DNA from: Flavobacteriaceae bacterium
Lineage (GTDB): Bacteria > Bacteroidota > Bacteroidia > Flavobacteriales > Weeksellaceae
Assembly (NCBI GenBank): GCA_031277475.1
Contig: JAITMJ010000080.1
Span: forward strand, 1 to 62,408
Length of the DNA stretch: 62,408 nucleotides
Reading direction: 5' to 3'
Shown: in pieces, positions 49,052 to 62,408 of the stretch
How the letters are laid out: each line of letters opens with the position of its first letter
Position numbering within the stretch: the first letter of the stretch is position 1
Made by a program: the position numbers and the translations under genes
Notes under the pieces: model-generated
Told to the model about the DNA's origin: nothing
Database searches by the model: none
The model's input: the letters and a program-made list of their open reading frames with translations, nothing else

Positions 49052-49579
49052 TTTGTAAAAATAAGAAAACGGCGAGGAATCAGTCCAAATGCATAAAAAA
49101 AAGTATTCTATCGTTTTTTTTCTACGTAAAGAGATGTTTGCAAAGATTTTTTGCTAATTTTTCCCGCAGATTTCCGCTAATTTTTTGCCTCATTGTCTCA
49201 TTATATTTCTATTGTTTTCAATGGAATCGGCAATTTCATTTTTATTTTTTTCAAAGGAATCGGCGAATCTTTCATTTCACAGATTTTCGCATAATTTGTT
49301 TTCGGATGCAAAAATTTGTTTTGGCGATGAATTTGCGTGAGGGATGGAAGTGGAAATCCTTTTTTTTGCGGTTGGGATTTTTGCGGAGGCGAAAAAAAGA
49401 TTGCAACGGACAGCCCGACCCGAGCGGTTGCAATGGTTTGGCGAGGGGCACGCCCAAGAAATAGAAAGTTGAATCCAAATTTTTAATGAGTTTGACTTGG
49501 TGTCGACAAAAATATCCCTCAAAAAAAAACAAAAAAGTTTTATTTTGCGAAATATTACCGATAAATAAAAAAATCAGAC
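49052..49579. other. gap holding a Bacteroidota-type dispersed repeat
   Basis: About 530 bases with no believable gene. At 49400-49434 an ATTGCAAC and its complement GTTGCAAT flank GGACAGCCCGACCCGAGC. Then GGGC-AC-GCCC follows at 49446-49455. The minus-strand reading gives GVPLAKPLQPLGSGCPLQS, a string I have seen as spurious short proteins in many flavobacterial genomes, so this is most likely a dispersed non-coding repeat. T-rich and codon-like stretches around it carry many stops. Confidence 0.5.
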
Positions 49580-58671: not shown

Positions 58672-59254
58672 TTTTTTAGACTTGGAAAAAAAAGAGTAAA
58701 GACTTAACTCGCTGTTTTGTACGTGTTTAAATTTTCCGTTTAGTTTGTCCAAATTTTCGTAGGGGTAGAAATTATTTTATCTCCGAATCAGAGCCATTGG
58801 TCGAAAACAAGATTGTATGAGAAATAATTCAGGAACTTGCTCTATAAAATATTGCTAATTATTAATATGTTATGAAAGAATAAAATGTTTTTGAAATTAC
58901 AAGTGGTTGAGTTTTTGTTTTTTACAATGTGGGATTCCTAAGCTTTGGAATTTGAGTCAAACTCATTAAAAAAAATTATGAAATGTAAACATATACATTT
59001 TTCACCTCTGGAGATAATCATTAAAAATATTTTGATTCGCTGTAATTTATTTCATAAGATGTTGCCTACTCTATTGACGATAGGCTTTCAACCTTTTCCT
59101 CAATGTTTTTGAATGATTTTTTTTATACGTTTGACAATTTAAAATTTTTAAATTATTCCCCAAATTCCCTATCTTTACATTTCTAAAAAACAAATAAATG
59201 GCATAAAACAGACATAAAAAACATAGCGTTTTACCATATTCTTGTTTCTGAAAA
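58672..59254. other. gap after infC, no gene seen
   Basis: About 580 bases of mostly A/T-rich sequence with stops in all frames. A small inverted pair GCCTA/TAGGC lies near 59065-59092. Nothing here looks like a tRNA, transposon end or conserved coding stretch. A partial -7-like TATCTTTA at 59170-59177 may start the structured RNA below. Confidence 0.4.
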
Positions 59255-59378
59255 CTTGAGAACTTTCAAAACACACACGAGAATAAGTAGTAAGCGCTCG
59301 CAGAAATGCGGGCTTACTTATTTTGTGTGTGGGTAATCTCAAGACCTCAGAAGCGGATAGTGTAAGTCCGCTTTTTTT
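59255..59378 (+). ncRNA. strongly structured RNA with its own terminator, upstream of an HTH gene
   Basis: Three nested helices: CTTGAGA (59255-59261) with TCTCAAG (59337-59343); CACACAC (59272-59278) with GTGTGTG (59325-59331); AATAAG..TAAGC (59282-59295) with GCTTACTTATT (59312-59322), leaving a 3-base bulge; and a tip CGC/GCG. A separate hairpin, AAGCGGA (59351-59357) with TCCGCTT (59367-59373), and T7 form a terminator 20 bases before the HTH start. It may be a free small RNA or a leader that attenuates the HTH gene. Candidates to test are the Rfam Flavo-1 motif and 6S RNA; I cannot decide by eye. Confidence 0.6.
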
Positions 59379-59398
59379 ATTACAAAAACACTAACATT

Positions 59399-62050: not shown

Positions 62051-62087
62051 TATATTTGCACCCGCTTTTTTTAAGTGCGGGTGCAAA
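62051..62087 (+). promoter_or_regulatory. promoter-like box within a hairpin before the last lipoprotein
   Basis: TATATTTG (62051-62058) fits TAnnTTTG. TTTGCACCCGC (62055-62065) and GCGGGTGCAAA (62077-62087) pair perfectly over eleven bases and overlap the box. T-rich sequence follows, so it may act as the terminator of the preceding gene, a start signal, or both. Confidence 0.5.
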
Positions 62088-62104
62088 TTTTAATTTTAGA
62101 AAAA

Positions 62105-62408
62105 ATGAAAAAATATTTAATAATACTCATAGCGTTTCTTTTTGCTTTTTCCTGTTCGGATGACAGAGATATTGAGCCGGAACAGCCTTACAAACCGTTA
62201 AGCGTTAATACTTTGGAGCTTTATATTGACGGTAAAAAATTTGAACCACATAGTTGACATAAATGCAAACTATTTACCTTGCGACCGCGAAATATCTTTT
62301 TCAGTGGTTGCTAAAATGGAAAACCAATGGGTAATTATCAAATTTCTTATCAATAAGCAAGGCAAGGTAAAATTTTTTGGAATATACCAGGGAGACTATG
62401 ACCACAAC
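62105..62408 (+). pseudogene. frameshifted lipoprotein gene cut by the window end
   Basis: The first frame gives 50 residues (MKKYLIILIAFLFAFSCSDD..., acylated Cys17) and stops at 62255-62257. The next frame is open from about 62241 to the window end and reads NHIVDINANYLPCDREISF... without a stop, 56 codons. Removing one A from the A6 run at 62234-62239 joins both parts into one protein. This is either a sequencing or assembly error, a recent mutation, or slippage-based phase variation. The signal peptide is nearly the same as in the gene at 61404. Confidence 0.7.

Follow-up and report, generated by a model that had tools for sequence, protein, structure and literature searches.

Does the long structured RNA upstream of a small helix-turn-helix (HTH) gene in a Flavobacteriaceae genome stand alone, or does it act on the gene that follows it? 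The original prediction for the window, the whole analysed stretch of 62,408 nucleotides, placed a three-tier RNA with a terminator at 59255–59378 and allowed for both a stand-alone RNA and an attenuator. Based on comparative folding, covariation and genomic context, the element is probably a cis-acting 5′ leader RNA of about 190 nt, belonging to a large Bacteroidota family outside Rfam and serving as a switch-like transcription attenuator of the following gene.

Architecture of the probable leader RNA and its relation to known families

The three tiers are real and correspond to P1, P2 together with P3, and P4, followed by an intrinsic terminator (Table 1). The fold of 59245–59384 reaches −53.4 kcal/mol, compared with −28.45 ± 3.54 kcal/mol for dinucleotide shuffles (z −7.05, none of 200 as good), which bears out the earlier view that such nested stems are unlikely by chance. 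The proposed start at 59255 lay too far 3′, as the outer stem P0, the leader hairpin H0 and strands a and b also belong to the unit, which begins at about 59198. At 59198–59206, ATGGCATAA reads as a Met-Ala-stop mini-ORF that is kept in the leader of the closest copies; it is absent from distant members, and a translated leader peptide therefore seems unlikely. No ToxI-like tandem repeats before the terminator were seen on reading the sequence of the unit.

Table 1. Features of the window copy of the leader RNA and of the genes that follow it.
Feature	Position	Strand	Remarks
Promoter-like box TATCTTTA	59170–59177	+	Bacteroidota −7 consensus TAnnTTTG, last base deviates
Whole conserved RNA unit	59198–59378	+	match span of covariance models R1 and R2
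A-rich 5′ segment (ATGGCATAAAA...)	59198–59224	+	kept in the seven closest copies
Strand a (AGCGUUUU)	59225–59232	+	5′ arm/loop of leader hairpin H0; alternative partner of a′
Strand b (AUAUUCUUG)	59236–59244	+	alternative partner of b′; strands a and b span 59225–59244
P0 5′ arm (GUUUCUGA)	59244–59251	+	outer stem; covaries (swap test)
P1 5′ arm (CUUGAGA)	59255–59261	+	outer tier of the original prediction; covaries (swap test)
Internal-loop strand ACUUUCAAA	59262–59270	+	candidate ligand/protein site; UUU..AA kept across diverse copies
P2 5′ arm (CACACAC)	59272–59278	+	covaries (swap test)
b′ (GAGAAU)	59279–59284	+	swap test
P3 5′ arm	59280–59290	+	swap test
a′ (AAGCGCU)	59292–59298	+	overlaps P4 5′ arm; swap test
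P4 hairpin GCUCGCA-GAAA-UGCGGGC	59296–59302/59307–59313	+	strand c forms the 3′ arm; pairing in 100% of cells of the covariation alignment
P3 3′ arm	59314–59324	+
P2 3′ arm	59325–59331	+	P2 and P3 together 59272–59290/59314–59331
P1 3′ arm	59337–59343	+
Conserved ACCUC	59344–59348	+
P0 3′ arm (UCAGAAGC)	59347–59354	+	59352–59354 common to terminator 5′ arm
Intrinsic terminator	59352–59378	+	d AGCGGAU 59352–59358; c′ GUAAGUCCGCU 59362–59372; T-run
HTH (XRE-like) gene, 95 aa	59399–59686	+	starts 20 nt past the T-run; HTH_3 E 0.0014, below the curated cut-off
Lipoprotein-like gene, 531 aa	59733–61328	+	six paralogues in the genome; no Pfam family

The transcription signals recur across the family. 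A TAnnTTTG box lies at −70 to +15 of the match start in 141 of 191 copies (11.5 expected by shuffling), and in 175 of 185 copies a T-run lies downstream of ACCUC at a median distance of 31 nt, which, together with the conserved terminator pairing d:c′ described below, marks an intrinsic terminator. As predicted, this terminator separates the RNA from the HTH gene.

Even with permissive thresholds, Rfam 15 yields no above-chance match to the window copy, to a copy of a same-family relative or to one from another class of the phylum, and the loci of the RNA in the window, the host genome and the relatives all stay below the gathering thresholds, in line with the earlier failure to recognise the family. 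The suggested comparison with 6S and Flavo-1 likewise gave no match for the leader RNA. With 6S-flavo RNA (RF01685) it shares a long irregular hairpin, a similar length and occurrence in Bacteroidota, but it lacks an Rfam match and is present in 15 copies here, whereas a 6S RNA is expected to be a single-copy trans RNA. A Flavo-1 (RF01705) match does occur elsewhere in the window at 49330–49424 on the forward strand (63.9 bits against a gathering threshold of 42), unrelated to the leader RNA. Both are flavobacterial RNAs of unknown function; Flavo-1, however, is a 76-position single-hairpin model with no match in sequence or structure. A study of F. psychrophilum (PMC9723704) reported Flavo-1 in 5′ transcribed regions, and members of the leader RNA family could be among the 64 structured 5′ regions that it lists. 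Searches of open-access papers on structured RNA discovery gave no description of the family.

Covariation of the nested stems and of competing helices

Absence of covariation in homologous loci had been named as grounds for abandoning the prediction, and the copies instead keep their pairs by compensatory change. In P1, for example, CUUGAGA/UCUCAAG of the window copy is replaced in other copies by CUUAGGA/UCCUAAG (L002), CUUCAAC/GUUGAAG (L006) and UUACCAC/GUGGUAA (L007). Of the 2375 cells in an alignment of 49 diverse copies, 93.2% show standard pairing, compared with 37–44% when the partners are slid by 1–3 columns, and two-sided changes occur at 43 of 51 pairs, G-U pairs being included in this RNA-type covariation. 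The covariation score was 0.616, against 0.179 for shuffled and 0.05–0.09 for slid alignments, and none of 500 shuffles reached any observed value. Fitting the alignment to the model biases it in the model's favour, yet the values of the slid and shuffled controls lie far from those observed.

A swap test, which leans little on alignment, set the energy of the duplex between an arm and its own partner against that obtained with partners from other copies. Across 63 non-redundant copies, all nested stems were supported (P0 z −28, P1 −25, P2 −28, P3 −7, P4 −12), as was the terminator pairing d:c′ (−7.2), whereas control pairings scored about 0. Furthermore, the same copies revealed three long-range helices, a:a′ (z −9.1), b:b′ (−10.1) and c:c′ (−8.8), which compete with the nested stems and give the terminator alternative partners. 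In 47 further copies outside the helix definition the values were −9.1 for b:b′, −8.0 for c:c′, −3.0 for a:a′ and −4.6 for d:c′, and permutation of partners only within subfamilies gave −7.4 (a:a′), −9.8 (b:b′) and −5.4 (c:c′) in the diverse group. In the window-type subgroup, b:b′ was weak by within-subfamily permutation (98/5000), and P4 and c′ are nearly invariant there, so that c:c′ and P4 are untestable by covariation in this subgroup. The P4 motif GCUCGCAGRRAUGCGGGCUU served as a search pattern, and its invariance in the loci found in this way is therefore a matter of ascertainment and not evidence. The conserved pairings a:a′, b:b′ and c:c′ are mutually exclusive with the nested fold. 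Between P0 and the terminator exclusivity is partial, as P0 overlaps the terminator 5′ arm by a few bases, which weakens the terminator without excluding it and makes partial coexistence possible.

Three other candidate pairings were set aside. One fold joins b to the 5′ arm of the terminator, but this pairing lacks conservation (z +1.6); a:c′ (z −5.2) was not built on because c′ resembles a′; and a GAAA..UUUC / GGU..ACC kissing loop around P1 shows too little variation for support.

Occurrence, downstream genes and alternative explanations

A DNA search of the host genome found seven copies, the other six being 75–84% identical to that of the window, and covariance model R2, built from 97 sequences, found at least 15. 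When a single copy served as the DNA query against 59 relatives, nothing was found beyond the host genome, and the copies of relatives were reached by covariance model only. Model R1, built from the seven host-genome copies only, matched 91 of 197 same-family genomes (E ≤ 0.01) and 21 of 395 genomes of the phylum (E ≤ 1e-4), other orders and classes among them. R2 matched 101 of 395 Bacteroidia genomes (E ≤ 1e-4, strict filters), about a quarter, although its E-values for its own training genomes, unlike those of R1, are partly by construction. No R2 matches occurred in nine non-Bacteroidota genomes, which had been chosen via chance motif matches, or in 100 genomes of the Acinetobacter phylum; Scybalousia, presumed to be a control, gave seven, but its genome proved to be Bacteroidota. 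Four Bacteroidota genomes (two Algoriphagus, Cognataquiflexum and a Saprospiraceae MAG) had none, and the family is thus not universal in the phylum. Plasmid and phage records gave no DNA-similarity match to the leader RNA, and eight viral contigs carrying the P4 motif had no R2 match and were dismissed as chance matches.

In all seven closest copies, the gene starts 20–38 nt past the terminator T-run. This spacing leaves no room for a promoter of the gene's own, which, together with the strong covariation, favours a leader or attenuator over a purely stand-alone RNA. Across the family, an ORF of at least 40 aa on the same strand starts within 245 nt downstream in 166 of 189 copies, and one of at least 80 aa in 87 of 124, compared with 47 of 124 divergently upstream. 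An exception to this close 5′ position is a same-family subgroup (L027, L026, L029 and similar), in which the gene starts 200–380 nt downstream. Additional complementary segments lie past c′ in this subgroup, and its leader may extend further.

The leading alternative, a trans-acting small RNA family, would have a stable 190-nt RNA acting elsewhere while the downstream gene uses leaky termination. The promoter box and terminator that most copies carry are in its favour, as are the very stable long nested hairpin and the P0–P2 arms, which differ among copies of one genome like address tags. A sense gene, however, is kept just downstream of most copies, and conservation in cis extends to the helices that rival the nested fold. 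Furthermore, R2 found at least 110, 71, 48, 27, 18 and 12 copies, from no more than 134 scored candidates per genome, in six MAGs, including Candidatus Symbiothrix and termite-gut Bacteroidales, and some 110 or more copies in one genome, with genes beside the sampled ones, suit a cis element better; a trans-acting role is accordingly unlikely. In the Ca. Symbiothrix MAG (G614), many copies lie a few hundred bases from contig ends, which suggests that repeated sequence beside them breaks the assembly.

The original prediction saw in the RNA, HTH protein and lipoproteins a possible accessory module. In the host genome this holds in one direction: all four copies of the HTH gene sit downstream of the RNA, as do five of six lipoprotein paralogues, two of these five without the HTH gene. 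In the other direction it does not hold, since 11 of the 15 host RNAs are without such an HTH gene. The suggestion that copies might precede other HTH genes of this type has the same two sides, as the XRE-like family follows only 5 of the 189 copies with downstream sequence. With the HTH gene behind only 4 of 15 host copies, it is not the general partner of the RNA; the leader appears to be a general one that a small HTH/lipoprotein module happens to use, and the HTH reading is mostly incidental. PMC8040213 describes human-microbiome candidate RNAs that lie no more than 25 bp upstream of HTH_XRE genes; compared by description only, they are alike in being structured RNAs before an XRE gene, whereas XRE is a minority partner here. 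By sequence reading, the sixth lipoprotein paralogue (L268, C116:28673–30280) has a divergent XRE-like gene where the leader would be. At the contig end of the window (62075–62408), the third lipoprotein-like ORF, which stops at 62257, is overlapped by a frame that begins at 62226, possibly a frameshift or pseudogene.

The downstream proteins of 170 copies fall into 79 clusters, and a Pfam scan of 77 representatives found 47 families, none in more than two. These include DNA methylases, type I restriction, SusC/plug, BspA repeats, PKD and Fib_succ_major as well as sigma-70, response regulator, FHA and thioredoxin-like families, and NCBIfam identifies one representative as a SusC/RagA receptor. 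ToxN-like genes were not found among the downstream genes. An apparent enrichment of secreted proteins downstream was dropped because the crude measure was positive for 25 of 37 background ORFs. In one termite-gut MAG (G616; L086, L093, L233–L251), about 20 sampled copies precede paralogues of one secreted PKD/Fib_succ_major family, possibly an expression-site family.

Such an array of partners recalls processive antitermination, in which a put, EAR or LoaP-target-like elongation element would allow RNA polymerase to pass terminators within accessory genes, with the polymerase or a NusG paralogue as the signal. Put, EAR and JUMPstart-ops are leader elements placed at the transcript starts of functionally unrelated, often surface or accessory, operons, and the leader RNA likewise sits at the transcript start of unrelated accessory and surface genes, with alternative folds in an order that polymerase could time. 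These elements belong to other phyla and have other structures, and we regard an element of this kind as doubtful. Still less probable is a metabolite riboswitch class with a single small-molecule ligand. The conserved internal loops beside P1 and an expression platform with a terminator and alternative pairings would fit one, but no common pathway lies downstream, where restriction-modification, SusC/RagA receptors, BspA repeats, a sigma factor, a response regulator and FHA proteins occur, and the genes are too varied to give a ligand clue. A copy number of about 110 is also far from that of typical riboswitches. Finally, action of the hairpin as DNA, within a dispersed repeat or mobile element, which the many copies and the position of numerous termite-gut MAG copies near contig ends might suggest, is highly improbable given the strong RNA-type covariation including G-U pairs, the fixed orientation to the gene, and flanks that, beyond the promoter-to-terminator unit, share no ends and are unrelated among the seven copies save where HTH/lipoprotein genes are shared.

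Proposed co-transcriptional switch and its significance

From the structure and position of the leader RNA we infer switching and control of read-through by attenuation. The trp leader, T-box and metabolite riboswitches share with it a 5′ leader, a terminator, competing helices and a gene directly downstream; in contrast to these systems, the present RNA is untied to gene function, occurs in many copies per genome and has no Rfam match. Prefix folding of the window copy gives an order of events. The a-b:b′-a′ hairpin is the minimum at 121 nt, when the RNA ends at the P4 5′ arm, b:b′ lasts to 142 nt, and the nested hairpin prevails from 152 nt on. At full length the nested fold is 15–22 kcal/mol better than the forced a-b state, which can thus be transient only. 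As equilibrium favours the nested fold, conservation of the alternative pairings is understandable if they serve a choice that is timed during transcription. The terminator-forced and free ensembles of the seven copies are 0.2–6 kcal/mol apart.

In the proposed mechanism, strand a-b of the nascent leader would pair first with b′-a′, the 5′ arms of P3 and P4. The emerging 3′ arm of P4, followed by those of P3, P2, P1 and P0, could then displace a-b and zip up the nested hairpin. Strand c in the P4 3′ arm and c′ in the terminator 3′ arm would be competitors, c:c′ forming only when P4 is open, while d:c′ would constitute the local terminator, with P0 sharing 2–4 nt with d. Completion of P0–P4 would weaken termination and turn the gene on, and a stall in the a-b state would leave c and d free for c′ and keep the gene off. 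The choice would be biased at the conserved internal loops (GAAA..UUU and GGU..ACCUC) by a protein, a ligand or a cell signal common to the copies.

More tentatively, the leader could be the portable cassette of a phylum-wide class of Bacteroidota RNA switches, with about 100 copies in termite-gut symbionts, which subjects unrelated accessory genes (surface proteins, SusC receptors, restriction-modification systems and regulators) to a single shared signal through strand exchange along the entire leader during transcription; it would then be an RNA counterpart of ops/RfaH-type control.

Strongly conserved, numerous and present in a quarter of the sampled Bacteroidia yet outside Rfam, the family would rank among the more abundant regulatory RNAs of Bacteroidota, and the model yields directly testable base-pair predictions. 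If the switching is true, it would offer an explanation of how numerous surface and defence genes of Bacteroidota could turn on together.
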